DNA of 64,000 bases from an uncultured Oscillospiraceae bacterium (GCA_950075865.1 CATMVA010000008.1:1-64000), one strand, 5' to 3'; shown: positions 1,106-26,625, counted from the stretch's first letter. Numbers and translations: made by a program. The notes: generated by a model not told the origin, from the letters alone.

Positions 1106-3028
1106 TTACAGATTGGCCGCAATAAAATAGGAGTCGTTGGTGGCCTCCAGCACCTGGGCCACCCGCTTACAGTCCCCCACCATGGCCGTCTCGGGTGTAA
1201 TGCCGTAGAAGGAGAAAGCCAGATCCTTCCGGGGGCGCATCCCTACCGAAAGCAGCACATGGTCGGCAGGCAGAAAACGCTCCTCTCCCGTCTGATCCGT
1301 GACCACCACACCGTCGGGGCGGATCTCCTTCACAGCGGAGCCCAACATGGCCTTGGGCGGATTCCCGCTCTCCCGGATGGCATTGTTCAGCCCGTGGCGG
1401 TAAAGCCAGTTGCTCTTCTTGGCCAGGGCGCCCTGGGGCTCCACCACCGTAACATCGTTGCCCCGGTCGCTGAGCTCCAGGGCCAGTTCGCTGCCGATGG
1501 CGCCGCCGCCCACGATGACGATCCGCCCCCGGACTCTGTCCAGCTCAGGGTAAACGCTTACCGCCTGCCGGGCATACTCGGCTCCCGGGATGGGGGGCTG
1601 GATGAAATCGGCCCCCACCGCCACCATCAGCGCGTCCGGTGCAAGGTTGCGGACCAGCTCCGGGGTGGCCTCGGTATTCAGCCGGACCTCCACTGTGGTC
1701 CTGGCCAACTGGTTGATCAGATAGTCCCGGTATTTTTTCAGATCGGCCTTATGATCCCCGTAGTCGGCATAGCAGAGGTTGCCCCCCAGCCGCCCGCTCT
1801 TCTCCAGCAGGATGATCTGATGCCCCCGCTCCGCCGCGGTCAGGGCCCCCTTCATCCCGGCGGGGCCGCCGCCCACAATAACCACCCTTTTTGCCCGATC
1901 TGCCTTGGAAAGACAGAGGGGGACTCTGTCCTCCCGACGGAATCGCGGGTTTACCGAGCACTGGGTGTTAGCGTGCTCGGTGGCGATATGGTAGCAGTTC
2001 AGACAGCGCAGACAGGGCACAATGTCCTCCTCCCGGTCCTCCATGGCCTTCTGGGGCCAGTAGGGATCGGCCACCAGCTGACGGCCCAGCATGACGGCGT
2101 CCACCTTACCTTCGGCGATGGCCTTCTCACAGGCGTCAGGGTCGGCGACTCCCCCCACCACACTGACCAGAACCTTGCTCTCCCGCTTTACCCGGGCTGC
2201 AAAATCCAGATTGTACATCCGAGGCGTGAAAATGGTGGTGTGGGCGTATGTATTGGCCACATACTTGTCGATGGTGCCCCCGTAGCAGTCCATCCCGCAG
2301 GAGATGTTGACGATGTCCATGTCGTCCTCCACCGACCGGATAAAGTAGAGCATATCGTCCTCGGTGTAGCTCTCGGGCACCTTCAGCTCCCGACTCACCC
2401 GCACCAGCAGGGGGTAATCCGGCCCCACCGCCTTCCGTACGGCCCGCAGGGCCTCCCGGGCAAACCGGGTCCGGTTCTCCAGGGAACCGCCGTACTCATC
2501 CTCCCTCCGGTTCCACACCGGCGAGAGAAAGAGGGAGCAGAGGCTGTCATGACCGAAGTGGAGCATGACCATGTCAAAGCCAAATGCCTTGCCCTCCACA
2601 GCCTTCCGGCACATCTCTCCAATCTTTTGGTCCATACCCTTCCTCGTCATGGCCCGCATCCGGCCGCCGGTAAAATGGACCCCGTCAGAGGGTCCGTCGG
2701 CGCTGCCGTCCTCGTGGATATCCCCGTGGAACCCGATCTCCAGCATAGCCATACCGCCCGCCTGCCCCATGACCGACAGGACCTCCCGGCTCACGTCCCG
2801 CGCGTATTTCGAGAAGGGCTCCCTCTCCCCCGCCAGGCCGGAAAGAGCATACTCGCTCACCGCGACCACGGCGGCCCCGCCCAAGGACTTGTCCGGCAGG
2901 CTCAGGCCGCCATAGTTGGTGGTGGACAGCTGTACCGCCCTGGGGATCCCCATGGGAGCGGCGATGACCCGGTTTTTCAGCATGATACTGTTGACCCGAA
3001 GGGGGGAAAACAGCTTCGGATATTTCAT
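1106..3028 (-). CDS. Old Yellow Enzyme-type FMN/4Fe-4S/FAD oxidoreductase (2-enoate reductase/BaiCD-like), copy 1
   Basis: 640 aa; HFGH and YGGSLENR active-site motifs; CLRCLNCYHIATEHANTQC Fe-S motif; GGGPAG and GGGAIGSE dinucleotide-binding motifs. Confidence 0.9.
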   Translation of the reverse strand: MKYPKLFSPLRVNSIMLKNRVIAAPMGIPRAVQLSTTNYGGLSLPDKSLGGAAVVAVSEYALSGLAGEREPFSKYARDVSREVLSVMGQAGGMAMLEIGFHGDIHEDGSADGPSDGVHFTGGRMRAMTRKGMDQKIGEMCRKAVEGKAFGFDMVMLHFGHDSLCSLFLSPVWNRREDEYGGSLENRTRFAREALRAVRKAVGPDYPLLVRVSRELKVPESYTEDDMLYFIRSVEDDMDIVNISCGMDCYGGTIDKYVANTYAHTTIFTPRMYNLDFAARVKRESKVLVSVVGGVADPDACEKAIAEGKVDAVMLGRQLVADPYWPQKAMEDREEDIVPCLRCLNCYHIATEHANTQCSVNPRFRREDRVPLCLSKADRAKRVVIVGGGPAGMKGALTAAERGHQIILLEKSGRLGGNLCYADYGDHKADLKKYRDYLINQLARTTVEVRLNTEATPELVRNLAPDALMVAVGADFIQPPIPGAEYARQAVSVYPELDRVRGRIVIVGGGAIGSELALELSDRGNDVTVVEPQGALAKKSNWLYRHGLNNAIRESGNPPKAMLGSAVKEIRPDGVVVTDQTGEERFLPADHVLLSVGMRPRKDLAFSFYGITPETAMVGDCKRVAQVLEATNDSYFIAANL

Positions 3029-3069
3029 TTGTAGCTCTCCTTTCTGGTGTATCGCCCCGGAGCCTTCCC

Positions 3070-5040
3070 TTACAGGTTTGCCGCCCCGCTGAAGCCGATC
3101 AGGGTGTCGATGAATTCGTCAAAGGTGGCGCAGCCCATCAGCCGGTCAAACTCCGCGTCGTCACTCACATTCCGGGTGATGAGCTCGAAAATATCGGAGA
3201 AGAGATCCCGGTCCTCCTCCCGCAGGGTAAAGACAAAGGTAAGCTTGACCCGGTTGTCCCCCCAGCGGATGGGGGTATGGTTCAGGGCCACCGCGATCAC
3301 GCTGGAGCCGGCCCGATTGTCCAGGGGGTGGGCGATGGCCACCCTCCCGTAGGAGGAGGCCGCGATCCGCTCATGGTCATAGATCTTCTGCTTGAAGTCT
3401 CCCTCCACGTATCCCTGACCCGTCATCCGGTCACAGATATATTCGATGGCGTCGTTCTGGTCGGCCAGGGGCGCGTCCACAAAGAACAGGTCCTCATGGA
3501 AAAAGTACAGGATCTTTTCCCGGACCCGGTTGCTGATCTTCTCCTGCTTGATGGAGTCGATGACCGAAAACAGATTGCGGAAGTCGGCCTCGCTCATAAA
3601 GGGGTCAATGACCAGCTGGGTGATGCCGATGGAAGGCAGCCGCTCGGTGGTGACCACCAGATCCACATTGCTCAGATCGATGGTCCGGTCTATGGAGGTA
3701 TAGATGTTGGCGATCAGCAGATTGTCGGTGCAGACATGGGAGATCCGCTTAAAGATCCGCTGGGACAACAGGTTGTAGTCCGAGCAGACCAGCACGCAGG
3801 AGACCCGGTTGTGTACCGCGATCTGCTCCTGCATCAGCACCCCGATGTGCAGCGCGATATAGGCGATCTCGTCCTCGGGAAGCCACAGCTCGGTCTTCTC
3901 ATGGATGATGTTGGAGATACTCACCGCGATGGCGTACATAAAGGGGTAGGAATCCTTGATCTCGCTGAACTGCAGGTTGGAGATCCGAATGCCGTTGTTC
4001 AGCCGGACCAGCAGGTTTTTCAGATGGAAGGCAAATCGGATCAGGAAATCCTCATTCTGCCCGATCTGTATCCCGTAGATCCGGTCCACCGCGCCCACGA
4101 TGTCGTCCAGCAGGGACTTGATCTCGAGCCCCAGGATATCCCGCAGCTGCTCATAGCGAAGCACCTCCACCTGGGTAGTGACCGCCCTCGTCATCATCAA
4201 AACCGAGGCCTGGTAAATATCCCGCAGCGTATAGGGTGTCTGATAAACCTCCTTCAGCCGCTCATAGATGTCGTTCACGATGGCCCGAACGGCGGGCGCC
4301 CCCAACTCCTCCAGCACAGGGGTCTTTGGCCCGTAGGGGTCGGCCACCTCTTCCGCGGCCCCGTTGATCTCGATGGTCAGCCCCAGATGCAGACAGTAAT
4401 TTAAAAGGGAGTAGTCGTCCAGAAAGTACTCATGCTTCCGCAGCACTTCCAGAACGATCCCCTCCACCTCCTTCAGGTCCACCGTGGTAAAGACCTGCTG
4501 GATGCTGTCCCTGGAAAACCGGCTGGCCTGCAGCTCGTCGTTCACAAAGTGCATCACCGCCGAGCGCTTGTCCTTATCCAGCCCGGTGATGGAGATCACA
4601 TCCTTCCGGATATGGAGGGCCAAATGATACTCGTTCAGCTCGGCCCGCACCTTGGCCAGCTCATTCTGCAGGGTCTCCGGGGCAACACAGAGCTGGCCCG
4701 CCAGCTCATCGACGGTCAGCTTCTGCCCCTGTGCCAGCAGTCTGGTCAGGAGAATACTTTTCCGCTCGGCATAATTCAGCGGCGCGGCGCCGCCCTCCGC
4801 CTGTCCCATGATCTCCCGGGCCATGGCCCTGTTGATGCTGTACCCCTTGGCCGAGGATGTGATCAGCCCCGGATGCTCCTCGTTCAGCTCGGCCACCGAA
4901 TACTTGACGTTGCGGACCGAGATCCCCAGCACCTCCGCCAGCTCTCCCGAAGTCGTCCAGTCGAACGCGTCGATCAGCCGGTCCATGATTCGCTGTTTTG
5001 TGGACTGATTTGCCACGGAAAACACCCCCTTTTGATCCAT
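3070..5040 (-). CDS. PRD-containing transcriptional activator/antiterminator with HTH and EIIA-like C-terminus (LicR/MtlR type)
   Basis: 656 aa; N-terminal HTH_11-like, PRD-like region (AYIALHIGVLMQEQ), EIIB-like (VLVCSDYNLLSQRIFKRI) and EIIA-like (AIAHPLDNRAGSSVIAVAL) segments. Confidence 0.85.
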   Translation of the reverse strand: MDQKGVFSVANQSTKQRIMDRLIDAFDWTTSGELAEVLGISVRNVKYSVAELNEEHPGLITSSAKGYSINRAMAREIMGQAEGGAAPLNYAERKSILLTRLLAQGQKLTVDELAGQLCVAPETLQNELAKVRAELNEYHLALHIRKDVISITGLDKDKRSAVMHFVNDELQASRFSRDSIQQVFTTVDLKEVEGIVLEVLRKHEYFLDDYSLLNYCLHLGLTIEINGAAEEVADPYGPKTPVLEELGAPAVRAIVNDIYERLKEVYQTPYTLRDIYQASVLMMTRAVTTQVEVLRYEQLRDILGLEIKSLLDDIVGAVDRIYGIQIGQNEDFLIRFAFHLKNLLVRLNNGIRISNLQFSEIKDSYPFMYAIAVSISNIIHEKTELWLPEDEIAYIALHIGVLMQEQIAVHNRVSCVLVCSDYNLLSQRIFKRISHVCTDNLLIANIYTSIDRTIDLSNVDLVVTTERLPSIGITQLVIDPFMSEADFRNLFSVIDSIKQEKISNRVREKILYFFHEDLFFVDAPLADQNDAIEYICDRMTGQGYVEGDFKQKIYDHERIAASSYGRVAIAHPLDNRAGSSVIAVALNHTPIRWGDNRVKLTFVFTLREEDRDLFSDIFELITRNVSDDAEFDRLMGCATFDEFIDTLIGFSGAANL

Positions 5041-5081
5041 TCCCTATTATCAGGGCGCCATACCGGGAAAACAAGCGGCCG

Positions 5082-5104
5082 TTTTGCACCGCACCGGTGC
5101 AAAA
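5082..5104. promoter_or_regulatory. Palindromic activator site TTTTGCACCG-CAC-CGGTGCAAAA upstream of the PTS promoter
   Basis: Perfect 10-bp arms in the 134-bp divergent intergenic region, 7 bp upstream of a TTGTTT-17-TATATT promoter (5112-5140). Confidence 0.7.
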
Positions 5105-5111
5105 GCCGGGA

Positions 5112-5140
5112 TTGTTTCCATGCGGCCGATTTTTTATATT
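5112..5140 (+). promoter_or_regulatory. Candidate promoter of PTS operon (TTGTTT-17-TATATT)
   Basis: Weak -35, good -10, 17-nt spacing, downstream of the palindrome. Confidence 0.5.
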
Positions 5141-5174
5141 TAGGATATCCCAAAATGACAGGAGGGAATCCGAT

Positions 5175-5492
5175 ATGACTACGGAGGAAGTCTACGAGAA
5201 AGCGTGTGAGATCATCGCCTTTGCCGGCGACAGCAAGAGCTATTCCATGGAGGCCATTCAGAACGCCGAGGAGGGCGACTTCGCCGCCGCCGAGGAGTGC
5301 TTCCAAAGCGCCGACAAAGCCTTGCAGACCGCTCACAACCTGCACACCGACCTTCTGGTGGTGGAGGCCCGCGACCTGGGCTGCGTCCCGGTCAACATGA
5401 TGCTGATCCACGCCTCCAACCACCTGACGGCAGCCGAGCTGACCCGGGATTTTGCCGAGCGGCTGGTCACTGTTTATAAAACCAGATCCTGA
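5175..5492 (+). CDS. PTS lactose/cellobiose-class EIIA
   Basis: ATG after GGAGGG; EIIA-Lac/Cel style sequence with conserved AHNLHTDLL...MLIHASNHLTAAEL. Confidence 0.85.
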   Translation: MTTEEVYEKACEIIAFAGDSKSYSMEAIQNAEEGDFAAAEECFQSADKALQTAHNLHTDLLVVEARDLGCVPVNMMLIHASNHLTAAELTRDFAERLVTVYKTRS

Positions 5493-5510
5493 GGAAAGGA
5501 GGGAAATACC

Positions 5511-5822
5511 ATGTACAACATCGTTTTGGTCTGTGAGCACGGAGCCAGCACGGGGATGCTGACCGCGGCCATGAAGAAAGCGGCCGAGACCATGGGTGTG
5601 GACGCCACCATCAACGCCTACCCCTACACCAAGCTGGACGAACTCATCGACGGTGCCGACATCATCCTGCTTGGCCCTCAGGTCCGGTTCAAGAAGAAGG
5701 GCTTTGAGGAAAAGTACGCCGACAAGGGCGTAGAGTTTCTTGTGGTGGATACAGTCGCCTACGGCACCATGAACGGCGAAAAAGTCCTGAAGCAGACCCT
5801 GGAACACCTGCAAAACAAATAG
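5511..5822 (+). CDS. PTS lactose/cellobiose-class EIIB
   Basis: 103 aa; N-terminal VLVCEHGASTGML phosphocysteine loop. Confidence 0.9.
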   Translation: MYNIVLVCEHGASTGMLTAAMKKAAETMGVDATINAYPYTKLDELIDGADIILLGPQVRFKKKGFEEKYADKGVEFLVVDTVAYGTMNGEKVLKQTLEHLQNK

Positions 5823-5847
5823 GCAAAACATAGAGAGGAGAAACATC

Positions 5848-7116
5848 ATGGAAAAATTTATGGAAAAGCTAAATAGCATCGTTGAGCCTCTGGCCAACTG
5901 GGTCTATAAGCAGAAGTTCCTGCTGGCCCTGTCCGAGACCATGCAGGCCCTGCTCCCCATCACGGTCATCGGCTCCTTCGCCTGCCTCTTTGCCTTCGTG
6001 GACATCGGCGGCTGGCAGGCTTTCCTGGGATCCCATCCTGTGATCCTCACGGGTCTCATGAATACCCAGAGCTGGACCCTCAGCATCATCGCCTTCTACA
6101 CCGTGGCCGCCCTTTCCTACCTGTACGCCAAACGCCTGGAGATGGACGAGCCTCTGTCCTGTGTCCCCCTGGCCCTGGCCGCCTTCATGCTCCTGACCCC
6201 CACCGAGCTCTACACCGCCCTCCCCACCGCCTGGCTGGGCCACAAGGGCATGTTCTCGGCCTTCATCATCGTTTTCCTGGTGGTCCGCTTCGTCAAGCTC
6301 TGCCAGGACAAGAACATCACCATCAAAATGCCCGCCGGCGTGCCCCATTATGTAGAGGCCACCTTTGCCGTGCTGATCCCCGCCGTCATCATCTGCTTCG
6401 GCTGCAGCTTCATTGGCCAGGCCGTCGCTCAAACCTCTGTGGGATCTATCCATGACGTGATCTACAACTTCATCCAGGCCCCCTTCATGAACCTGGGCAG
6501 CGGCTTCGGCGGCACCCTTATTCAGGAGCTGGTGATGACCCTGGCCATGTTCTGCGGCGTCCACGGCCAGTCCGTCGTGCCCTGGCAGCCCGCCCTGATG
6601 ACCGCCTGTGACGAAGCCAACGCCGCCGCTATCCGGGCCGGCGCCGCCATCCCCAACGTCTACGGCTCGGGCTCCATGAACATCATCCAGATGGGCGGCA
6701 TTGGCGCCACCCTGGGCCTTGCCATCCTGATGGTCATCTTCTGCCGCTCCAAGCGGTACAAGTCCCTCTCCCGTGTGGCCATCGTCCCCCAGATCTTCAA
6801 CATCGGCGAGCCTCTGCTCTTCGGCATCCCCATCATGCTCAACCCCGTGCTCTTCCTGCCTTACATGGGCGGCGTGGTGGCCAATACCCTTCTGGTGTAC
6901 GGCAGCATCGCCTTCGGCATCGTGGGCCGCCCCAACGGCGTGAACCCCTCCTGGACCATGCCCGGTCCCCTTCAGGGCCTGCTGGGCATCTCCACCCCCA
7001 TCCAGGGCGTCATTCTGGCCTTGGTCGTCATCGCAGTGGACATGGTCATCTGGTATCCTTTCGTCCGTATGATGGATAAGCAGGCCCTGGCCGAAGAGGC
7101 CGCCGAGGAAGCCTGA
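5848..7116 (+). CDS. PTS cellobiose-class EIIC permease
   Basis: 422 aa multi-TM; MEKFMEKLNSIVEPLANWV start and FNIGEPLLFGIPIMLNP motif typical of CelB/LicC. Confidence 0.95.
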   Translation: MEKFMEKLNSIVEPLANWVYKQKFLLALSETMQALLPITVIGSFACLFAFVDIGGWQAFLGSHPVILTGLMNTQSWTLSIIAFYTVAALSYLYAKRLEMDEPLSCVPLALAAFMLLTPTELYTALPTAWLGHKGMFSAFIIVFLVVRFVKLCQDKNITIKMPAGVPHYVEATFAVLIPAVIICFGCSFIGQAVAQTSVGSIHDVIYNFIQAPFMNLGSGFGGTLIQELVMTLAMFCGVHGQSVVPWQPALMTACDEANAAAIRAGAAIPNVYGSGSMNIIQMGGIGATLGLAILMVIFCRSKRYKSLSRVAIVPQIFNIGEPLLFGIPIMLNPVLFLPYMGGVVANTLLVYGSIAFGIVGRPNGVNPSWTMPGPLQGLLGISTPIQGVILALVVIAVDMVIWYPFVRMMDKQALAEEAAEEA

Positions 7117-7137
7117 TCCATCCTCAAACACAACCAA

Positions 7138-7174
7138 AGAAGCGATGGGTTTGGGTCCCAAACCCATCGCTTCT
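7138..7174 (+). terminator. Strong intra-operon hairpin (terminator/attenuator)
   Basis: AGAAGCGATGGGTTTGGG-T-CCCAAACCCATCGCTTCT, 18-bp perfect arms followed by CTTTATTT. Confidence 0.75.
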
Positions 7175-7195
7175 CTTTATTTAGGAGGCATCGTT

Positions 7196-7438
7196 ATGAT
7201 CCAAATCGGAAGCTCCAAGCTCAAACAGGTCATGGAAGCTCTGGACGGCCAGACCCATGACGGCATCACTTTTCACGTGGAAGGAAAACCCCAGGGCCTC
7301 TCCTGCAAGCTTACCCACAACGGCGAAAGCGACAACGCAGCCAAGTCCGTCGTCAAGAAGGTGGTCGCCTCCCTCCCCGGCTGCGCCACCGCCTACCTGA
7401 AGGTGGATCTTCTGGACGAGCAAGGCCGCATCATCTGA
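7196..7438 (+). CDS. Small uncharacterised protein (80 aa)
   Basis: ATG after AGGAGG; intact small ORF between PTS EIIC and OYE gene. Confidence 0.65.
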   Translation: MIQIGSSKLKQVMEALDGQTHDGITFHVEGKPQGLSCKLTHNGESDNAAKSVVKKVVASLPGCATAYLKVDLLDEQGRII

Positions 7439-7455
7439 AAAGGCGGGACCAAACC

Positions 7456-7725
7456 ATGAAATTCTATTTAGGCGATCCCGGTTTTCAAAAGACGATGCGG
7501 AAGATCTATTCCTGGCTGGTCCCCGGCTTCTGCTGCGGCATAAGCATCCTCCTTCTGCTTTCGGGCGGATGGATCCCCTCCCTGCTCTTTCTCTGTGTCA
7601 CCTTGCTCTATCTGCCTATGCTGAAGGACTTCTGGGCCCGTTTTTGGCTCAAGGGCTTTCTGAAGGCCCTTCTGGCCCTAGCCATGGTCATCGGAGCCAT
7701 TTACAGCACCGGGCTCTACGTCTGA
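7456..7725 (+). CDS. Small membrane protein (89 aa)
   Basis: Three predicted hydrophobic segments; RBS-like GGCGGG upstream. Confidence 0.65.
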   Translation: MKFYLGDPGFQKTMRKIYSWLVPGFCCGISILLLLSGGWIPSLLFLCVTLLYLPMLKDFWARFWLKGFLKALLALAMVIGAIYSTGLYV

Positions 7726-7759
7726 CCCTCTCAATCACCCCTCGAAAGGAAGCGCTGCA

Positions 7760-11136
<3,377 letters not shown>

Positions 11137-11149
11137 AAGGAGGCACAAC

Positions 11150-13051
11150 ATGGAAAACAAATATCCCCAGCTTCTCTCCCCCATTCAGATCAACTCCCTG
11201 ATGCTGAAAAACCGCATCCTGGGCATGCCCACGGGCTGCTCCACCGCCCCCGCCGCCGGCGGGGCCGCCGTGGTCACCATCGGCTCGGTGGCGGTGGACT
11301 GCGAGAAAAGCTCCTGGGACTACACCGCGGAGTATTCCTTCTCCAAATATAACGCCGCCTGGCACCGGGAGCAGATCTCCACCGCCCACTACGGCGGGGC
11401 CGCCATCTCCTGCGAGCTGTTCCACGCCGGTGTCTGGTGCCGGGTCCCCAAGGGGGATTTCGCCTGGGGCCCCAGCGATTGCTACATGGAGGAATATGAC
11501 CGCCAGGTCAGGGCCCTGGACGAGGAACACATGCAGGAGATCTGCGGCGCCTATGCCCGCACCGCCCGGGACGCCAAGGACATGGGCTATGACATGTTCC
11601 TGATGCACTTCGGCCACGGCTGGCTGGCCTCCTCCTTCCTCTCCCCTTACTTCAACAAACGCACCGACGAGTACGGCGGCTCCATCGAGAACCGCGCCCG
11701 CTTCCCCCTCCGGATTCTGAAGGCTGTCCGGGACGCGGTAGGCCCCAAGTTCCCCATCGACATGCGCCTCAACGACAATGACCGGCTCCCCGGGGGCATT
11801 GAGTTCGAGGACGTGATCCGCTTCGTCCAGCTGGCCGAACCCTACATCGACGCGGTCCAGCTCTCCTGCGGCCAGGATATGATCCGTCTGGGCAACATCT
11901 TCGCCATACCCACCAACCTGACTCCCCACATGCTGAACGTGGAGTATGCCGCCGCGTTGAGAAAGCACCTCAGCAGCAAGCTCAAGGTCTACGCCGTGGG
12001 CGCCATTATGAACCCCGACGAAGCTGAGGAGATCATCGCCTCAGGCAAGGTGGACATGGTGGCTCTGGGCCGGACCCTGACAGCCGATCCCCAGTATGCC
12101 AACAAGCTGATGGAGGGCCGCCGGGAGGACATCATTCCCTGTGTCCGCTGCCAGCAGTGCTACCACATCGCCACCAACCGGAGAAACGTAGGCTGCACCG
12201 TCAATCCCGCCATCCTCCGCCCCGGCCTGGACACCAGTCTGGTCAGGACTGACTCCCCCAAGCATGTGGTGGTCATCGGCGCCGGCCCCGCCGGTCTCCA
12301 GGCCGCCATCACCGCTGACAAGGTGGGCCATAAGGTCACCCTCGTTGAGAAGGACGGCGAGGTAGGCGGCCTCATACGGCTCATCGCCCGGGAGCACTAC
12401 AAATCAGAGTTTAGGGACTATCTGGACTATATGCGCCGGCAGCTGGACAAGTCCCATGTAGACCTCCGCCTCAATACCCCAGCCACCCCCGACTACATCC
12501 GCTCCCTGAAGCCTGACCGCCTGATCATCGCCATCGGAGCCGAGCCGGTCACGCCCCCGGTGGAGGGGATCGACGGCCCCAACGTCATGGGCTTCCGCCA
12601 GGCCATTATGGAGCCGGAAACCATCGGAGACCGGGTGGCCGTCATCGGCGGCGGCGTAGTGGGCATCGAGCTGGCCCTGGGCCTCTCCCTGGAGGAGGGC
12701 AAGGAGGTCCATGTGATCGAGATGGGCGATCAGATCGCCGCCACCGCCAACATGCTCTATCAAACCGGGATCAAAGAGGCCATTTCCAGGGCCAAAACCC
12801 TCAAAATCCACCTCAAAACCACCCTAAAAAAAGTCAACTTTGACTCGGTGGTGGCAGAGCCCGCAAACGCTTCCGCCGCAACGCTTTCCGTCGACACCGT
12901 CATTGTCGCCGCCGGATTGCGTCCCAAAACCGCAGAAGCCCACTCCTTCTACGGCATTGTCCCGGATACATTGATAACAGGCGATTGTAAAGCCCTACGC
13001 ATTGTCATGGAAGCCAATTTTGAAGGCTACGCCGCCGGAAACAAGAAATAA
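11150..13051 (+). CDS. Old Yellow Enzyme-type FMN/4Fe-4S/FAD oxidoreductase, copy 3
   Basis: 633 aa; HFGH...YGGSIENR; CVRCQQCYHIATNRRNVGC; GAGPAGLQAA and GGGVVGIE motifs. Confidence 0.9.
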   Translation: MENKYPQLLSPIQINSLMLKNRILGMPTGCSTAPAAGGAAVVTIGSVAVDCEKSSWDYTAEYSFSKYNAAWHREQISTAHYGGAAISCELFHAGVWCRVPKGDFAWGPSDCYMEEYDRQVRALDEEHMQEICGAYARTARDAKDMGYDMFLMHFGHGWLASSFLSPYFNKRTDEYGGSIENRARFPLRILKAVRDAVGPKFPIDMRLNDNDRLPGGIEFEDVIRFVQLAEPYIDAVQLSCGQDMIRLGNIFAIPTNLTPHMLNVEYAAALRKHLSSKLKVYAVGAIMNPDEAEEIIASGKVDMVALGRTLTADPQYANKLMEGRREDIIPCVRCQQCYHIATNRRNVGCTVNPAILRPGLDTSLVRTDSPKHVVVIGAGPAGLQAAITADKVGHKVTLVEKDGEVGGLIRLIAREHYKSEFRDYLDYMRRQLDKSHVDLRLNTPATPDYIRSLKPDRLIIAIGAEPVTPPVEGIDGPNVMGFRQAIMEPETIGDRVAVIGGGVVGIELALGLSLEEGKEVHVIEMGDQIAATANMLYQTGIKEAISRAKTLKIHLKTTLKKVNFDSVVAEPANASAATLSVDTVIVAAGLRPKTAEAHSFYGIVPDTLITGDCKALRIVMEANFEGYAAGNKK

Positions 13052-13055
13052 ACCA

Positions 13056-13102
13056 AAAACAGCAGTCCGAAGCGTTAAAATTGCCAAGGACTGCTGTTTT
13101 TT
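13056..13102 (+). terminator. Rho-independent terminator
   Basis: AAAACAGCAGTCC ... GGACTGCTGTTTTTT after OYE copy 3 stop. Confidence 0.8.
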
Positions 13103-13206: not shown

Positions 13207-13908
13207 TTACGATTTCCCCTGCCCATAGTAAGCGTTGGGCCCATGCTTACGCATGAAGTGCTTGTCCTGTATCCATTGCGGCGCAGGGCTTGCCTTGGGA
13301 TCATGCAGTTCGGTAAAGGTAGCCATCTTCGCCACCTCCTCCAAAACCACCGCATGATACACCGCCTCGGCAGCGCTTTTGCCCCAGGTAAAGGGGCCGT
13401 GATTGGCGCAAACGATTGCGGGGAGGTGAATGGGGTTGATTTTTCGATTTTGGAAGGTTTCGATGATCACAAGGCCGGTGTTTTTCTCGTAATCCTCCTC
13501 GGTCTCGGCGGCTGTAAGCTCTCTGCTGCAAGGGATAGGACCGTAGAAATAGTCGGCGTGGGTGGTGCCGTAGCAGGGGATATCCCGGCGGGCCTGGGCC
13601 CAACCCACGGCGTGGGGACTGTGGGTATGGACAATGCCGCCTAGAGCCGCAAAGGCTTTGTAGAGTTCCAGATGGGTCTTGGTATCCGAAGAGGGGTTGA
13701 GTTTTCCCTCTATCTTGTTGCCTTCAAGGTCCATGACCACCATATCTTGCGGCTTTAGGTCCTCATAGGCGATTCCGGAGGGTTTGATGACGAAAAGCCC
13801 CTCTTTTCGGTCAATTCCACTGACATTTCCCCATGTAAAAGTGACCAAATTTCGTTTTGGCAGCTCCATATTTGCTTCGTAAACTTCTTTTTTCAGCTCT
13901 TCCAGCAT
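13207..13908 (-). CDS. araD: L-ribulose-5-phosphate 4-epimerase (AraD/UlaF/SgbE family)
   Basis: [14 protein letters not shown]...VKPSGIAY...[14 protein letters not shown]...HTHS motifs of class II aldolase/AraD. Confidence 0.93.
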
Positions 13909-14009
13909 AGCTTGTTTTGCCTCCGTTTTTTGATGTTTTGAGGTCGTTTTCGGGGGTTTTGAGGGTAGTTTGAATTTGCCGACCCCGGGGCGGATATCGG
14001 ATCATCTTT

Positions 14010-14067
14010 CCAGTCCGGGCAGCCCACGATTTTCTTTGACCGGGTGAACCAGTCTGGGCAGCCGACG
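14010..14067. repeat. Short degenerate direct repeat CCAGTC[C/T]GGGCAGCC[C/G]ACG (two copies)
   Basis: 14010-14028 and 14049-14067 match at 17 of 19 positions. Confidence 0.5.
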
Positions 14068-14235
14068 GGTTCCGTCCCTTTGGTCCTCCGCTCATGGAAA
14101 GATGAGGATGGGACATCGGATCATTTTCCGCGCCCCGGCGGACCAGGAGAGAACGCCGCATCCTTTTTCCTATCCGGGAGCCGCCCGCAGGACGGTGAAC
14201 CGGCGGGACCGGAGGGGACTATCCCCATTCATTTT

Positions 14236-14961
14236 TTAATCATATTCTTCGCAGATAAATTTGAAGTCCTCAGTCTTGCGCAATGCCGCCAAAGCGTATT
14301 TCTCAATATGTTCCGTCATGATCTCTGCCGCATACCGGAAAATTTCCGACGGATGGCCCTCGGCACAGCGCACCATTGTGATCAGCATCTTATTGTCGCC
14401 CTCAATATATTCAGACGGGTAGTCGCCAGAATTATCGCAGGCATCCTCGTCACGGTATTTCTGTCTGACTGCCTCTGTCTGCGCTGCGGTGCCAATCACT
14501 GCATGATAATCCATGTTATCGCCGTCACAGTACCAGTCGATAAAAAGCCTTGCCACGACATCCGTGCACTGCTGGATCTGCCCGATCATGGCATCTGCAT
14601 TTCGGATGGCAAATCTCCGGATCTTCTCCTTCGCAGCTTCCCTGCTTTCATAGCGGATGTACAAAAGTGTTTCGCGGCCTTTCAGCACGGCCGAGATCTT
14701 CTGAAGGATCCCATCCTTGCCATAGACTGCGCGCAGCGTCCGAACAAGCTCCCCCTCCAGCACGCCGTACGACCTCATCTGACGCCGTTCCTGCCCAACA
14801 GGAATGTCATAATCAAGGATTTGATACTGTGCGTCATAGTCGAAGGAGACAGCGCTGTCCCCCCCGGTATCCTGACTCAAATCAACAACGCTGTATACGC
14901 CTTCTTTGTACACAAGCGGAAGATCATGTAATTCCAACATTTGAGAGCCTCCCTCTTCCAA
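14236..14961 (-). CDS. Hypothetical protein (241 aa ORF, likely start near MLELHDLP)
   Basis: Intact ORF with lower-GC codon usage; no family recognised. Confidence 0.55.
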   Translation of the reverse strand: MEEGGSQMLELHDLPLVYKEGVYSVVDLSQDTGGDSAVSFDYDAQYQILDYDIPVGQERRQMRSYGVLEGELVRTLRAVYGKDGILQKISAVLKGRETLLYIRYESREAAKEKIRRFAIRNADAMIGQIQQCTDVVARLFIDWYCDGDNMDYHAVIGTAAQTEAVRQKYRDEDACDNSGDYPSEYIEGDNKMLITMVRCAEGHPSEIFRYAAEIMTEHIEKYALAALRKTEDFKFICEEYD

Positions 14962-15117
14962 AGCCCGGTCTATATACCTGAATTATAGGCTCAATGTCTG
15001 CTGCTTACAATCTATATTTGCAAGTTCTTTTCTATGGATATACGATTTTGGAAAGGGCGTTTCTTTATCCGGGGAGAAGGATGCCTGCGGGGACGAGGTA
15101 ATGGGGCGGGGTCCCTC

Positions 15118-16182
15118 TTATTTGGTGATGCGGTAGAGGGCCACCTCATCGGTCTCCCGGTTGGCGGCCACCACCACATCGGAGCCTGTTTGGTCCGTGA
15201 AGTACATGATGTTGGCGCAGCCCACGTCACGGTCGATGACCGCGGTCACATAGTCCCCGGCTTCCGGATCCCAGGTGACGGCCACCGTGTCCCGGGTCCC
15301 CTTCCGCCAGCCCACCAGCCAGGTGGGCTTTCCCAAAAGCGTGCAGGCCCAGGTGGCGTGGAGCATTTCGGTGTCCTTCTCGGGAAGGGGGCATTTCCAC
15401 TGGGGCACATAGTTTCCGTCCCCGTCCAGGTGCCAGACGGTGAGGGAGGAACCGTGGAAGGGGGAGATGAGCCCCAGCTCGGGCTGTCCGTCCCCATCAA
15501 AGTCCATGAGGACCGCATCGCTGGTGGGGACGGCCAGGAGCTGGCGGATCTCCCATTCCCCGCCGGGGGCGGCGGGAGGCGTGAAGCGGAGGGTGCCCGC
15601 CTCGCAGCCCACGACGGCGCTCTCCCCTTCCCCGTCCCGAAAAATCGAAAAGCCGTGGTTTTTCAGCAGGCCGTCCTTCAGCAGAGTGAGGGGAAGCTGG
15701 TGATCTTCGTCATAGGCAGACAGGTCATCGGGCAGGACGGCCCCGTAGCAGGCCCCGGGAAAGCGCCAGTCCCCCTCGTGCTCATGACCGCTTTTCAGGC
15801 AGCACACGATGAGGTAACGGACCCCGCCCCGCTCCAGGATGCCGAAGCGGTGGACAAAGGGAGCGTCGCAGAGCTTCCGGATCTCCCAGCCGCCCTGGGC
15901 CCCGGGCTGGGCCAGGATGATGGAGGCCTCTTTGGAATCGTCAGGGGAATAGAACTTCCGGGTGGCCAGGAAGGCCCCCTCCCGGCCGGGGAGAGAGGCC
16001 ACCGTCATGGTGCCGCCGGGGGCTTGCCAGACCGTGTCCAGCAGCTCCCCTTCCTCGGAAAAGAGAAGGCAGGGATCGTCCTTCTCGGCAGCCACCAGGA
16101 AGCAGGGCCGCCCGCCGTAAGTCAATCGTCCCAGAGAGTAGCATTGATCGAGCCGGGCGATGACTTTTTTCTCTATTTGCAT
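15118..16182 (-). CDS. FG-GAP/VCBS-like beta-propeller protein without obvious signal peptide
   Basis: 354 aa; DFDGDGQPELGLI and HLDGDGNYVPQW repeat-like blade motifs; one nt gap from downstream epimerase gene. Confidence 0.7.
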   Translation of the reverse strand: MQIEKKVIARLDQCYSLGRLTYGGRPCFLVAAEKDDPCLLFSEEGELLDTVWQAPGGTMTVASLPGREGAFLATRKFYSPDDSKEASIILAQPGAQGGWEIRKLCDAPFVHRFGILERGGVRYLIVCCLKSGHEHEGDWRFPGACYGAVLPDDLSAYDEDHQLPLTLLKDGLLKNHGFSIFRDGEGESAVVGCEAGTLRFTPPAAPGGEWEIRQLLAVPTSDAVLMDFDGDGQPELGLISPFHGSSLTVWHLDGDGNYVPQWKCPLPEKDTEMLHATWACTLLGKPTWLVGWRKGTRDTVAVTWDPEAGDYVTAVIDRDVGCANIMYFTDQTGSDVVVAANRETDEVALYRITK

Positions 16183-16183
16183 G

Positions 16184-17044
16184 TCACCGTCCCCCTTTTG
16201 CCGCCGCGACCACGTCTATCAGGGCGGACATTTGGGTGCGGGCGAAGAGGATGTCCTCCTTCCAGTCGGCCTTGCCCACGTCCCACATCTCGGTCACGTA
16301 GCGGCGGACCCCCAGGTCCCAAGCCTTGCCGATCACGGCGGGGAAATCCACGTGGCCGGTGAGGAAGGGGATCTCCCGGAACTTGCCGGGGACGGTCTCC
16401 TTCAAGTGGAGGGCCACCAGGTGGCCGCGCCCGGTCTCCAGGTCCGCCAGAACGCTCCCCCCCGCCGCCAGGGCGGCGTTGGTCAGATTCCCCGAATCGG
16501 GGTAGACCCCCAAGTAGGGGCTGTTTATCAGGTCCACATACTTCATGGCCTTTTGGGTGGTGTTCATGAAGTCGGTCTCCATGGTCTCGAAGCCCAGGAG
16601 GATCCCCCGGGAAGCCGCCATGGCGGTGGCTTTGGCCAGGTTTTCCCGGAAGAGACGCTCGCTCCCGGCGGTGCCAGGCTCGTAGTACACGTCGTAGCCC
16701 GCCAGCTGGATCACACGGATGCCCAGGTCGTCGGCCAGGACCACCGCCTTCTCCATGATCTCCATGCTCTTTTCCCGGGCGGCCGGGTCAGAGGCACCGA
16801 AGGGATACTTCCGGTGGCCTGACAGGCACATGCTGCGGATGGGCAGGCCCACCTCGGCCATGAGGGCCGTGAGCTCCTGCCGCTCGGCCCGGCTCCAGTC
16901 CAGACGGGAGAGCTTTTCGTCGGTCTCGTCAATGCTGATCTCCACAAAATCATAGCCGCACTCCTTGGCGCAGAGCAGCTTTTCCCGCCAGCTCAGGGCT
17001 TTGGGCATGGCCTTCTCATAAAGGCCGATGGCGTATGCCTTCAT
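16184..17044 (-). CDS. L-ribulose-5-phosphate 3-epimerase (UlaE/SgbU-like, xylose isomerase-like TIM barrel)
   Basis: MKAYAIGLYEKAMPKALSWREKLLCAKECGYDFVEISIDETDEKLSRLDW start and SMCLSGHRKYPFGASD motif. Confidence 0.9.
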   Translation of the reverse strand: MKAYAIGLYEKAMPKALSWREKLLCAKECGYDFVEISIDETDEKLSRLDWSRAERQELTALMAEVGLPIRSMCLSGHRKYPFGASDPAAREKSMEIMEKAVVLADDLGIRVIQLAGYDVYYEPGTAGSERLFRENLAKATAMAASRGILLGFETMETDFMNTTQKAMKYVDLINSPYLGVYPDSGNLTNAALAAGGSVLADLETGRGHLVALHLKETVPGKFREIPFLTGHVDFPAVIGKAWDLGVRRYVTEMWDVGKADWKEDILFARTQMSALIDVVAAAKGGR

Positions 17045-17063
17045 GATCCTTCCTCCTTTTTTC

Positions 17064-18572
17064 TCAAAGCTGTTCCCAGACAGGGTCCAGAGCCTCCACG
17101 ATGGCACGGTAGGTCCTGTATTTCTTCTCATAGACCGCCCGGTATTCCCTCCGGGGCTCCACACGGCCGGACACCCGGACCATCTTCTCCATGGCCTGTT
17201 GATAGCTCTCAAAGACTCCGGCGCCCACACCGGCTGCGATGGCGGCCCCCAGAATGCCCTGCTCCCCGCACTCCACCGTCTCGATGGGAAGCTGGAGGGC
17301 GTCGGCAAACATCTGGACCCACACGGGGGAGTTGGCCGCGCCGCCGGCCAGGCGGACGGTTTTGGGGGGCTCCCGGTTGGCCAGGAGGCGTTTCACATGG
17401 GTCAGGTGGGAGAATACGATCCCCTCGTAGACCGCCCGCACCATATGGGACCGGGTGTGGTAGTCGGTCAGCCCCACAAAGCAGCCCCTGGCCAGGGCGC
17501 TCTCATTGGAGCCGTTCAGGAAGGGCAGGAAGTAGACGGTCTGCTCCTCCGGGCGGATGGCGGCCACCTCGGCGTTGAGCAGGTCGTAGACCGACCTTCC
17601 CTCCCCCTTCCTCTTCTCCCCGGTATCGGCCAGGAGCTTGTCGATAAACCACTGGAGGTTGCCCGCCGAGGTGGGGCTGCTCTCCTCGATGAGGTAGTAG
17701 CCGGGCAGACAGTACATGGAATTGAGGGCCACCGTCCGGTTGGTGATGGGGGCCCGGGTGATATACTCGTTGATGCTCCATGTGCCGGCGATCATGCACA
17801 TGCCCTCCTCGTCCCCCAGGCCGGAGGCGATACCGCAGGCATCCACGTCGAACATACCGGCCATGACGGGGGTACCCGTCTTCAGTCCGGTGAGGGCGGC
17901 CGCCTCTGGCGTCACGGCACCGCAGACCTCGTGGGAACAGACCAGGGGGGGCAGCTTGTCAAAGACCTCCTCCAGCCCAAAGAGGGCCATCAGCTCCCGG
18001 TCATAGGCCCCGGTGGTCAGGTTCACCAGGTTGCCCCCCGAGAAGTCGGTATATTCCCCGTTGGCTTTGCCGGTCAGGCGAAAGCGGATATAGTCCTTCA
18101 CCGAAAAGACCCAGGCGGTGCACGCCAAGACGGCAGGCTCGTGCTCCTTGAGCCAGGCCAGCAGGCTCACCGGCTGGCAGGCCAGGATATCCTGCATGGT
18201 CTTGGGGTAGATCTTTTCGGCCGTGCCGTCCTCCTTCCACCTCTTGACCTGCTCCCAGGCCCGTGTGTCGGTGGAGAGGATGCCGGGGTAGGCAGGCTTC
18301 CCCGCCCGGTCCACCAGGTAGAGGCCCTTGCCGTGGCCTGAGAAGGAGATCCCGGCGATGGCCGCGGGAGAGACCCCGCTTTTTTCCACCGCCTGCCGGA
18401 TCACCTTGGCGTTCTGGAGCCAAAGCTCCTCCATATCCCGCTCGGTATATCCGGCCTTGGGGGTACGATTGTGGATAGGCTCCCGGGAGACGGCCAGAAG
18501 GCGGCCCTCCCCGTCGATAACGCCGGCCTTCACGAATGTGCCTCCGTTATCGATACCCAGCAGATAGTTCAT
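17064..18572 (-). CDS. FGGY-family carbohydrate kinase (L-xylulose kinase-like)
   Basis: LLGIDNGGTFVKAGV N-terminus, SFSGHGKGLYLVD, and RLAGGAANSPVWVQMFAD FGGY signature. Confidence 0.88.
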   Translation of the reverse strand: MNYLLGIDNGGTFVKAGVIDGEGRLLAVSREPIHNRTPKAGYTERDMEELWLQNAKVIRQAVEKSGVSPAAIAGISFSGHGKGLYLVDRAGKPAYPGILSTDTRAWEQVKRWKEDGTAEKIYPKTMQDILACQPVSLLAWLKEHEPAVLACTAWVFSVKDYIRFRLTGKANGEYTDFSGGNLVNLTTGAYDRELMALFGLEEVFDKLPPLVCSHEVCGAVTPEAAALTGLKTGTPVMAGMFDVDACGIASGLGDEEGMCMIAGTWSINEYITRAPITNRTVALNSMYCLPGYYLIEESSPTSAGNLQWFIDKLLADTGEKRKGEGRSVYDLLNAEVAAIRPEEQTVYFLPFLNGSNESALARGCFVGLTDYHTRSHMVRAVYEGIVFSHLTHVKRLLANREPPKTVRLAGGAANSPVWVQMFADALQLPIETVECGEQGILGAAIAAGVGAGVFESYQQAMEKMVRVSGRVEPRREYRAVYEKKYRTYRAIVEALDPVWEQL

Positions 18573-18595
18573 GGTCCGCTCCCCCTTCCGCTTTC

Positions 18596-19882
18596 TTACA
18601 GGTCCACCTGGCCCAGCATGATCTTCAGGATCTGGGCATCGGTCTCCTTCATGCCCACACGGCCGATGTAGCCCAGGCTCTTGATGGTCTCCTCAATGTC
18701 CTTCTGGACAAAGCCCTCCCCGGCCTGGAAGAAGCGGCCCCGCATACTCATGTGGTGGCCCGTGATGGCGGCGTCCACCGCCGAGGCGATCTTGGCGGCG
18801 CAGGAGGATTTGGCCCCGTCGCACACCATGCCGCCCACGTTGGCCACTGTGTTGACGATGGTCATGCAGATCTGCTCGTAGCTGCCGCCACACAAGTATG
18901 TAATGGCCGCGCCGCAGCCGCAGGCCGCCGTCACCGCCCCGCAGAAGGCCGAGAGGCTGCCTATAAAATGCTTCTGATAGATGGAGACCAAGTTGCTCAC
19001 AATAAGAGCACGGTAGAGCTTCTCCTCGCTGACGCACAGCTCCCGGGCATACTCGATGACGGGCAGGGAGACCGTCATGCCCTGGTTGCCGCTGCCCGAA
19101 TTGATGACCACGGGCAGGGAGCAGCCCCCCATGCGGGCGTCCGAGCCGGCTGCCGCCTTTGCCCGCGCCCGGAAGTGGACGGCGCTGCCGTAGACCTCCA
19201 GGATTGTCTTGCCCACCTGGGCGCCGAAGTTTTCGCTGAGACCCTTCTGGGAGATAGCCGAGTTCTTCTCGATCTGGCTTTGGAGCACCGGGCGGACCTG
19301 CTTCAGGTCCACCTCGTCGGCAAAGGCCAGAATGTTCCGGATGCTCCAGCGGTCCCAGTCCTCCTCGTACCGCGCCTTCTCCACCGGCTTCTGCTCGAAG
19401 AGGACCTGGTCGTCGTACATGATCTTAGTGATAAGGGTGTGGCGGTTGACGATGGTCACCTCGGCCCGGTGCCCGGGCGTGCTGGCCGTGGCCACGATGT
19501 AGAGGTTCTCCACGTCCTCCTGGAGGGAGCAGTTCACGAAGCCCTGGGCGATCAGCTCCTTGGTCTTTTCGATGTGCTCGTCGGTGATCTCCTCCAGCAC
19601 CTCCAGCTCCCGGGCAGGGTCGCCTCCTACCACCCCCAGGACGGCGGCCACGTCAATGCCCCGCAGGCCCTTGGAGTTGGGCACGGTGACCCCCTGGACG
19701 TTTTTGACGATGTTGCCGCTGCAGCGGATATCCAGGTGAGTGGGCATCTCCCCCAGGGTCTCCCGGGCCTTGGCCGCGCAGTAGGCGATGGCGATGGGCT
19801 CGGTGCAGCCCAGAGCGGGGACAAGCTCCCGCCTGAGGGTGTCAATAAAGATCTGCTGGTCCTTTTTATCCATGTCGGTCAC
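18596..19882 (-). CDS. UPF0597 / YhaM(CyuA)-like L-cysteine desulfidase / serine dehydratase alpha family protein
   Basis: ELVPALGCTEPIAIAYCAA, SGNIVKNVQGVTVPNS, GSGNQGMTVSLPVIEYA motifs. Confidence 0.88.
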   Translation of the reverse strand: MTDMDKKDQQIFIDTLRRELVPALGCTEPIAIAYCAAKARETLGEMPTHLDIRCSGNIVKNVQGVTVPNSKGLRGIDVAAVLGVVGGDPARELEVLEEITDEHIEKTKELIAQGFVNCSLQEDVENLYIVATASTPGHRAEVTIVNRHTLITKIMYDDQVLFEQKPVEKARYEEDWDRWSIRNILAFADEVDLKQVRPVLQSQIEKNSAISQKGLSENFGAQVGKTILEVYGSAVHFRARAKAAAGSDARMGGCSLPVVINSGSGNQGMTVSLPVIEYARELCVSEEKLYRALIVSNLVSIYQKHFIGSLSAFCGAVTAACGCGAAITYLCGGSYEQICMTIVNTVANVGGMVCDGAKSSCAAKIASAVDAAITGHHMSMRGRFFQAGEGFVQKDIEETIKSLGYIGRVGMKETDAQILKIMLGQVDL

Positions 19883-20004
19883 CTTTCTCTCATAATATCA
19901 TAAAACTCTCCATTCACAAGAGCAAAAGCCACCGTTATCTCAAATGATACCTCAGTTCTTTGGCTCTTGTCAATCCAGAGTTCGCTCAGGAAGGGAATTG
20001 TGGG

Positions 20005-20041
20005 AAAAGGACCCGGGCAGGTCTTGTGCCCGGGTCCTTTT
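20005..20041 (-). terminator. Bidirectional hairpin terminator
   Basis: AAAAGGACCCGGGCA...TGCCCGGGTCCTTTT between the 20055 and 19882 genes. Confidence 0.8.
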
Positions 20042-20054
20042 CGGAGTTGATGGA

Positions 20055-21233
20055 TCAGTCCTCGATCACGCCGGTGTAGTCGGGGTTGACGGTACGGTAG
20101 GGCACGAACTGTCCGTCCTTGATGGTGACCACGCCCATGGGCTTATCGGGGTCGCCGTTGACCACGGTGTAGGTGCCGCAGAGACCCTCCACGGTGCAGT
20201 TGCGCATGTAGGAGGCGATGGCGGCGCGGTCGGGGCCGCAGGCCTTCAGCGCGTCCAGGAAGCAGGTGACGCCGTCATACATGTTCAGCACGTGGGAATT
20301 GATGGACTCCACGTTGTACTTGGCCTTATACCCCTCGGAGAAGGTCTTGAACTGGGGGGTGTCGGCGTCCAGGTCCAGGGCGGTCATGATGAGGGTGCCG
20401 TCGCCCTCGGTGCCCACCACGTCCAGCAGGCCCTGCTGCTGGGCGGCGCCGAAGGTCATGATGGGGGCGTCGATCTCCAGGTTCTTGGCCTGGAGGATGA
20501 TGGTAGCCACATCGGCGTAGCCGCCATAGACCACCAGGACCTCGGGATTCTGGGTCTTGAGGGAGGTGAGGATGGCGTTGAAATCCTTCTGGCCGTTCTC
20601 ATAGGACTCGGCGGCCAGCACCTTGCCGCCCCGATCCTCGAAGTACTTGGTGAAGTACTCCTTGCTGCTGTTGCCGGCGTCGTCGTTCAGGTAAAGGAAG
20701 ACCACGTTCTCGGCGCCGTAGAAGTTGGCCAGGAACTTGGCGTAGAAACGCTGCTGGATCTCGGAGGTGTTGCAGCCCCGGACCATGTAGTCGCCCAGGC
20801 TGGTGAAGTCAGCGTGGGAGGAGGAGGGAGCGAACTGGACGATGCCGGCATCCTCGAAGGTGGGGGCGTCGGCGATGGCACAGGTGGAGGAGAAGGGGCC
20901 AAAGCAGGCCAGGTAATCCTTATTCTCGGCCACCAGAGCGGCCACGGTCACAGACTCCTTGGAGTCGCCCTTGTCGTCGAAGAAGTCGCACTCCACCTTG
21001 TGGCCGTTGATGCCGCCGGCGGCGTTGATCTCTTCCAGCTTGTACTCGATGGCAGTCTTGTAGGAATTCCCGTGCTCGGCAGCGCTGCCGGTCAGGGGGG
21101 CGATCAGGGCGATCTTATAGGGCTCGTTGCCCTCAGGGTCGTTGTTGCCGGTGGGTTCCTTGTCCCCGCCGCAGGCGGCAAGCATTCCCAGGAGCATGGT
21201 TCCGGCCAGGAGCATCGCGATTCTTTTTTTCAT
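20055..21233 (-). CDS. Branched-chain-amino-acid-type ABC transporter substrate-binding lipoprotein
   Basis: Lipobox LLGMLAACGG; Peripla_BP_6 style IALIAPLTGSAAEHGNSYKTAIEYKLEEINAAGGING. Confidence 0.93.
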   Translation of the reverse strand: MKKRIAMLLAGTMLLGMLAACGGDKEPTGNNDPEGNEPYKIALIAPLTGSAAEHGNSYKTAIEYKLEEINAAGGINGHKVECDFFDDKGDSKESVTVAALVAENKDYLACFGPFSSTCAIADAPTFEDAGIVQFAPSSSHADFTSLGDYMVRGCNTSEIQQRFYAKFLANFYGAENVVFLYLNDDAGNSSKEYFTKYFEDRGGKVLAAESYENGQKDFNAILTSLKTQNPEVLVVYGGYADVATIILQAKNLEIDAPIMTFGAAQQQGLLDVVGTEGDGTLIMTALDLDADTPQFKTFSEGYKAKYNVESINSHVLNMYDGVTCFLDALKACGPDRAAIASYMRNCTVEGLCGTYTVVNGDPDKPMGVVTIKDGQFVPYRTVNPDYTGVIED

Positions 21234-21249
21234 TTTCTTATCCTTCCTT

Positions 21250-22176
21250 TCAATAGGTGTCGCAGACTTTTGCCATTGCTTTTATATTGTCCATGGGGGC
21301 ATAGGCCGCCAATGTACAATCGCCGCCAAGAATGAGTCCCTGCTTTCCGTAAGACTCCAGAACGGCCAGGGTCTCCTGGGCCGTCTCTTCGGGGGTGCCG
21401 TTGGAGATGGCGCCCAGGTTGTCCAGGCCGCCCATCACCTTCCGGCCGAACATGGCCCGGCCCTGCTGGAGGGACAGGTTGTTGCCGTGGATGTCCCAGT
21501 TGATGGCCGCGCACTCGTAGTCCCGGTACTGGTCCATGCGCAGGTTGTCGCCGCACATGTGGAAGATGTTGATCTTGGATCGGGTGTTGATGTATTTCAG
21601 CACCCCCAGGTCATACTGCTTCACATACCGCTGGAACAGATCGTCCTCAAAGCGGTTGAGCTCGCCCCCCCGGGAGGCGTAGTACATACCGTCCACACCC
21701 TCGCTGAAGAAAATGTCGGCCTGGCGGATCACCGCGTCCTCCAGGCGCTTCAGGGCATCCTCGAAGGCGGGGTCACGGGAGTAGGTGTGGGCGTTGACGA
21801 TGGCGTCATCCTTCGTCATGGCCCGGGCGTGGTTCCAGGGAGTGAAGAGGGTCCAGTAGACCAGGTCCTCCCCCTGGTTCAGGTCAAGCAGCCGCTTGAG
21901 CAGGTCCAGGTTAGTCTGGAAGTATTTCTCGTTGGGGTCGAAGCCCTTGAAGGCCTTCCAGTCCTGGGGGGTCTGGAGGGGAAAATCCACCACGAAGCGC
22001 AGATCCACGATGATCTTCAGGAAGGAGTTGGCGCTCTCACGGTGGAACTCCATCTGGGCCTCGGCGCCCGCCTGGCCGAAACGGCGATCCTCGGGCACAT
22101 GGGCGAACACACAGTGGGGCGCGTGGTCCACCGGCTGGTCGGCAAAAAAGGCCAACATTCTCTCTTTTCTTGTCAT
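21250..22176 (-). CDS. Uroporphyrinogen decarboxylase (URO-D)/MtaA-superfamily protein
   Basis: 308 aa; MTRKERMLAFF N-terminus, HMCGDN (HxCG) and GGDCTL motifs reminiscent of zinc methyltransferases. Confidence 0.8.
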   Translation of the reverse strand: MTRKERMLAFFADQPVDHAPHCVFAHVPEDRRFGQAGAEAQMEFHRESANSFLKIIVDLRFVVDFPLQTPQDWKAFKGFDPNEKYFQTNLDLLKRLLDLNQGEDLVYWTLFTPWNHARAMTKDDAIVNAHTYSRDPAFEDALKRLEDAVIRQADIFFSEGVDGMYYASRGGELNRFEDDLFQRYVKQYDLGVLKYINTRSKINIFHMCGDNLRMDQYRDYECAAINWDIHGNNLSLQQGRAMFGRKVMGGLDNLGAISNGTPEETAQETLAVLESYGKQGLILGGDCTLAAYAPMDNIKAMAKVCDTY

Positions 22177-23216: not shown

Positions 23217-23231
23217 GTTTGTCCTCCTTTA

Positions 23232-25693: not shown

Positions 25694-25711
25694 GTCTCTC
25701 CCCTCCCCCTC

Positions 25712-26590: not shown

Positions 26591-26625
26591 CACGCCGCCT
26601 CCTTTGTTCCTCATTGAGGAATGAC

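Follow-up and report, generated by a model that had tools for sequence, protein, structure and literature searches.

A lactose/cellobiose-class PTS and phospho-beta-glucosidase locus carrying three OYE-type flavoenzyme genes in an uncultured Oscillospiraceae bacterium

Organization of the locus

ORF and family scans were performed on a stretch of 64,000 nucleotides (the window) from an uncultured Oscillospiraceae bacterium, and two divergent gene runs were found between positions 1106 and 13051. The leftward run consists of a PRD-type, PTS-controlled transcription regulator (3070-5040, minus strand) and, 41 bp behind it on the same strand, OYE-1 (1106-3028), a 640-aa FMN/Fe-S/FAD ene-reductase-type flavoenzyme assigned by Pfam and motifs. 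A hairpin 3' of OYE-1, at 1050-1092, is terminator-like on the minus strand according to hairpin folding. The rightward run, all on the plus strand, consists of PTS IIA (5175-5492), IIB (5511-5822), and IIC (5848-7116), small ORF 1 (80 aa, 7196-7438), small ORF 2 (89 aa and hydrophobic, 7456-7725), OYE-2 (645 aa, 7760-9697), a GH1 6-phospho-beta-glucosidase (9727-11136), and OYE-3 (633 aa, 11150-13051). A preliminary description of this DNA had claimed this gene content, order, and orientation, and every gene that it named was present and intact in the ORF, Pfam, and NCBIfam scans.

Intergenic gaps on the plus strand are 13-79 bp, the widest being that between IIC and small ORF 1. Because the rightward genes are so tightly packed, they are probably co-transcribed, as had been proposed, and the interleaving of OYE-2, GH1, and OYE-3 would place the OYE genes inside the sugar operon. 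Shine-Dalgarno sequences are found at nearly every start in the locus. Judging from its upstream sequence, the regulator probably starts not at 5040 but near 5016, at a GTG preceded by a ribosome-binding site. For GH1, whose open frame extends back to 9694, translation most likely starts at the TTG at 9727 behind AAAGGAG. Codon use and GC content of the locus genes are those of the neighboring genes, so a foreign origin finds no support in composition.

The two small ORFs, neither of which had a Pfam or NCBIfam match, are probably genes, since their codon use fits and Shine-Dalgarno sequences are at nearly every start (AGGAGG for small ORF 1). Small ORF 2 is probably membrane-spanning. An HPr-like identity for small ORF 1 was considered and rejected, given the lack of a family match and of any homologue among 118 other genomes of the order. 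Its single-sequence structure model was of low confidence (pLDDT 62), with no fold match at E < 0.001.

The divergent promoter region contains an inverted repeat at 5082-5104, TTTTGCACCG-CAC-CGGTGCAAAA, which was absent from the preliminary description. This palindrome has one match in the window, where none is expected by chance, and is operator-like in its position and symmetry. At the other end, an intrinsic terminator 3' of OYE-3 (13055-13101, plus strand) has perfect 14-bp arms at 13055-13068 and 13088-13101, a folding energy of -24.4 kcal/mol (z -6.1), and a U tract. The single end terminator described previously is therefore real, yet the run has a further hairpin, a perfect inverted repeat of 17-18 bp at 7138-7174 in the gap between IIC and small ORF 1 (-29.9 kcal/mol for the stretch, z -5.5). 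This repeat has a weak U tract and lies 22 bp past the stop codon of IIC, immediately ahead of the following ribosome-binding site. The hairpin could attenuate or process the transcript, and it could separate expression of the PTS from that of the downstream genes, which counts against the interpretation that we favor below.

Beyond the locus, the minus strand from 13207 to 27327 of the window carries a pentose/ascorbate-type run with L-ribulose-5-phosphate 4-epimerase, a 3-epimerase, an FGGY kinase, a Gfo/Idh-type dehydrogenase, an MtaA-like methyltransferase, a Liv-type ABC transporter, and a GntR regulator. Two proteins of this run (14236-14961 and 15118-16182, minus strand) had no Pfam match.

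Transport, cleavage, and regulation

The regulator matched the Pfam families PRD, PTS_EIIA_2, HTH_Mga, and Mga, all over cut-off. IIA scored 86.6 bits against PF02255 (cut-off 27), which places it among the Lac-family chains, and IIB scored 65.4 bits against PF02302 (cut-off 23.6) and has a Cys near its N-terminus in VLVCEHGASTGM. IIC scored 274 bits against TIGR00410 (cut-off 236), a lactose/cellobiose family model. The lactose/cellobiose class previously assigned to this PTS thus holds for all three chains. The same 274 bits are well below the cut-off of 434 bits for the cellobiose PTS equivalog TIGR00359, so cellobiose cannot be named as the substrate.

GH1 exceeded the cut-offs of two 6-phospho-beta-glucosidase models, NF007158 (654 bits, cut-off 639) and NF007154 (641 bits, cut-off 624), and its best PDB matches were 6-phospho-beta-glucosidases. 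Together with the catalytic Glu pair, carried in TFNE and ENGLG, these matches bear out the function that had been proposed for it. A Ser/Lys/Tyr loop is present that we take, from general knowledge of the family, to be phosphate-binding. The phospho-relay of a PTS requires EI and HPr, and both were located elsewhere in the genome: HPr at C13:58428 and C4:23049, and an EI-size PEP-utiliser at C13:59460, adjoining HPr. Since GH1 exceeds its cut-offs and the genome encodes EI and HPr, there is good support, by established knowledge of these families, for a route in which the substrate enters as a glucoside-6-phosphate and is then cleaved. Transport specificity and the identity of the aglycone are not readable from sequence.

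The three OYE-type enzymes

OYE-1, OYE-2, and OYE-3 are full-length, two-domain FMN/Fe-S/FAD enzymes. OYE-1 matched Oxidored_FMN (113.5 bits) and Pyr_redox_2 (96.2 bits), OYE-2 matched the same two families, and OYE-3 matched PF00724 (144 bits), all over the Pfam cut-offs; the earlier claim of three large ene-reductases of this build is supported by these domain matches. The best NCBIfam matches of the three were BaiCD and bilirubin reductase, at 278-400 bits, and a BaiCD-type model matched OYE-3 over its full length. It could be argued from these names that the enzymes reduce steroids, bile acids, or bilirubin. However, OYE-1, OYE-2, and OYE-3 scored 344, 297, and 400 bits against BaiCD (NF041087, cut-off 825 bits) and 293, 278, and 324 bits against the long form of bilirubin reductase (NF045599, cut-off 750 bits), and within the locus, itself a sugar PTS operon, no further bai-type gene was observed. 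We know of no PTS for steroid or bilirubin conjugates, and we consider such a role highly improbable. The three proteins were also under the cut-offs for mycofactocin-associated OYEs.

In a tree of 57 sequences, the three enzymes formed one clade with a bootstrap of 100 (100/99), in which OYE-1 and OYE-2 were sisters. Identities were 44% for OYE-1 and OYE-2, 40% for OYE-1 and OYE-3, and 36-37% for OYE-2 and OYE-3, and the best relatives in 397 genomes of the order and 392 of the class were approximately 36% identical at most over the full length. The three are therefore closer to each other than to any relative seen, which in phylogenetic terms indicates that they arose by duplication within the lineage of this locus. 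A contig scan with OYE-2 found no relative, and a plasmid tblastn search with OYE-1 found no match; a contig scan with the OYE-1/OYE-2 alignment, limited to two short patterns, found four distant relatives (approximately 34%). Three of the approximately 5 OYE-type proteins in the genome are at this locus, and the others lie elsewhere. That all three paralogues were kept in one locus argues for selection together with the operon.

By their motifs, the three enzymes are not equivalent. The substrate-binding motif of OYE-3 is HFGHGW, close to the HxGHGW of most relatives, and OYE-3 has a shortened loop region near residues 28-36. OYE-1 has HFGHDS, in which His-x-x-His is kept and Asp-Ser stands where relatives have Gly-Trp. 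OYE-2 has DICTDS, with Asp-x-x-Thr instead of His-x-x-His, while its Fe-S and Rossmann motifs are intact. The His pair was nearly invariant in a 14-sequence alignment, OYE-2 being the exception. Since OYE-2 lacks the His pair and both OYE-1 and OYE-2 lack the Tyr/Trp beside its position, enone reduction by these two enzymes is uncertain. The structure model of OYE-2 (pLDDT 83) had NCR (2-naphthoyl-CoA reductase) and Escherichia coli DCR as its best solved matches, and these also lack the His pair in alignments, so OYE-2 is not necessarily inactive.

That OYE-2 precedes GH1 in the transcript, with a pocket motif unlike that of relatives, hints weakly at another order of events, in which the OYEs act on the intact glucoside, phosphorylated or free, and reduction precedes hydrolysis. 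No phosphate-binding feature was identified in the OYEs, however, and the described substrate of daidzein reductase is the aglycone; we find this order very unlikely.

The Cys spacing of all three enzymes is CX2CX2CX11C; the family motif as published, CX2CX3CX11-13C, is longer by one residue. CX2CX2C was found in 41 of the 57 aligned sequences, which suggests a trait of the clade rather than a loss. Most of the clostridial Fe-S flavoenzyme relatives (L011-L109) show CX2CX2C, unlike the published motif.

Conservation and genomic context

Co-occurrence in related genomes, which the preliminary description had named as a check, was not borne out, as no PTS-OYE neighborhood was found around the nearest relatives in approximately 790 genomes of the order and class. 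Neither the OYE clade nor IIC, for which no relative was above 37% identity, had a close relative in these samples. No comparable PTS or GH1 was present in the neighborhoods of the OYE relatives (up to 19-22 kb), nor was a full OYE present in those of the PTS relatives; the loci of the nearest relatives have a PTS or an OYE, never both. Because the samples were draws from larger groups and loci not retrieved individually had flanks of 1.5 kb, a rare second case may have escaped notice. The empty check leaves conservation unsupported and does not refute the function, because the parts were absent together. Our search of the literature for loci combining a PTS with an OYE or 2-enoate reductase returned nothing relevant.

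The same 2.3-Mb genome has at least 6 further GH1 phospho-beta-glucosidases (C1:285716, C6:48178, C6:119693, C12:39167, C13:74877, and C13:~80000), several of them near PTS genes and one adjoining a single-chain BglP-type permease. With this number of enzymes, the organism looks specialized for beta-glucosides. The module at C1:286k (L139) shares the regulator-IIA-IIB-IIC-GH1 order with the locus, but no OYE or small ORFs were seen in it. Its GH1 is 48% and its IIC 26% identical to those of the locus, so it is not a recent copy. A related module of the same core genes was found in another genome (L092). The locus looks like a standard PTS-GH1 module with an added OYE set.

These modules bear on the main alternative, namely that this is an ordinary operon for cellobiose or a simple beta-glucoside, whose OYEs serve some separate purpose, for example general detoxification of electrophiles or quinones, or redox balance, and are co-regulated by carbon supply instead of acting on an aglycone. 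A core without OYEs in the same genome, the related module in the other, and the lack of a conserved PTS-OYE link in the genomes sampled are all in keeping with it, as is the fact that Fe-S flavoenzymes are common in Clostridia and mostly of unknown function (PMC11574389). Yet three retained paralogues, all at this locus and interleaved with GH1, are hard to explain as passengers when the other OYE-type enzymes of the genome lie elsewhere. We consider this alternative unlikely, although it stays alive because no second genome with the same PTS-GH1-OYE arrangement was found among those sampled, which also counts against the explanation that we prefer.

Proposed function

The explanation that we prefer, with a probability of roughly 60%, is that the locus is an inducible operon for beta-glucoside uptake and use in which a C=C bond of the aglycone is reduced afterwards. 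In this scheme, the PRD regulator would sense PTS flux and substrate and control the divergent promoter via the palindrome at 5082-5104. IIA, IIB, and IIC would bring in the glucoside with phosphorylation at C6, and GH1 would release glucose-6-phosphate and the aglycone, probably that of some plant compound; the phenylpropanoids, flavonoids, and coumarins named in the preliminary description are candidates for it. OYE-1 and OYE-3, which retain the His pair, together with OYE-2 and its remodeled pocket, would then reduce an activated double bond, with electrons passing from NAD(P)H through FAD, the Fe-S cluster, and FMN. The purpose of this reduction could be either to lower the toxicity of the aglycone or to provide an electron sink.

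In a fuller version, successive double bonds of the aglycone would be reduced by three specialized ene-reductases, one of them having a rebuilt active site, so that sugar uptake and anaerobic reduction of plant metabolites fall in one regulon. We advance this version tentatively, at somewhat less than even odds. Every component that has a family match belongs to a known type, but their combination, including a locally expanded OYE trio and a rebuilt active site, was not encountered in the genomes sampled or the literature searched. Because three Fe-S flavoenzymes are tied to a beta-glucoside transporter and a phospho-glucosidase, the locus narrows the likely OYE substrate to aglycones of PTS-imported glucosides, which is testable with a small panel.

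Comparison with known systems

Precedents for glucoside import and cleavage and for C=C reduction have been published separately. Flavone reductase (FLR) of Flavonifractor plautii resembles the proposed activity as a gut bacterial enzyme whose substrate is a plant aglycone reduced at a C=C bond, but FLR has a WrbA/flavodoxin-like fold with FMN only and is not an OYE (PMC7862272). The locus enzymes are OYE barrels by family match, and the OYE-2 model matched NCR and DCR; they are neither members of the flavone reductase family nor homologues of FLR. The flavone reductase-type comparison made in the preliminary description is thus not supported, and FLR gives no reason to expect a flavone substrate for the enzymes of this locus.

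The Fe-S cluster-dependent flavoenzymes have the two-domain build of the locus OYEs, in which a Cys cluster lies between an FMN barrel and an FAD/NAD(P) domain, and NCR and DCR are the best solved matches. The locus OYEs differ in being under all equivalog cut-offs tested, in their shorter Cys spacing, in the presence of three copies in one sugar operon, and in the missing His pair of OYE-2.

For uptake and cleavage, the closest parallels are the plant-glucoside loci of Lactobacillus acidophilus, LBA0724-0728 and LBA0225-0228, which likewise bring together a regulator, a PTS permease, and a GH1 6-phospho-beta-glucosidase, and in which the glucoside is taken up in phosphorylated form and the aglycone freed inside the cell (PMC5698550). 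Their permease is a single-chain EIIABC or a separate EIIC, unlike that of this locus, and LBA0724 is a LicT antiterminator, whereas the regulator here is a DNA-binding PRD protein. No ene-reductase is present in those loci, and the aglycone is exported largely unmodified. If our interpretation is true, one gut-type organism would instead couple the uptake of plant glucosides directly to reduction of the aglycone.
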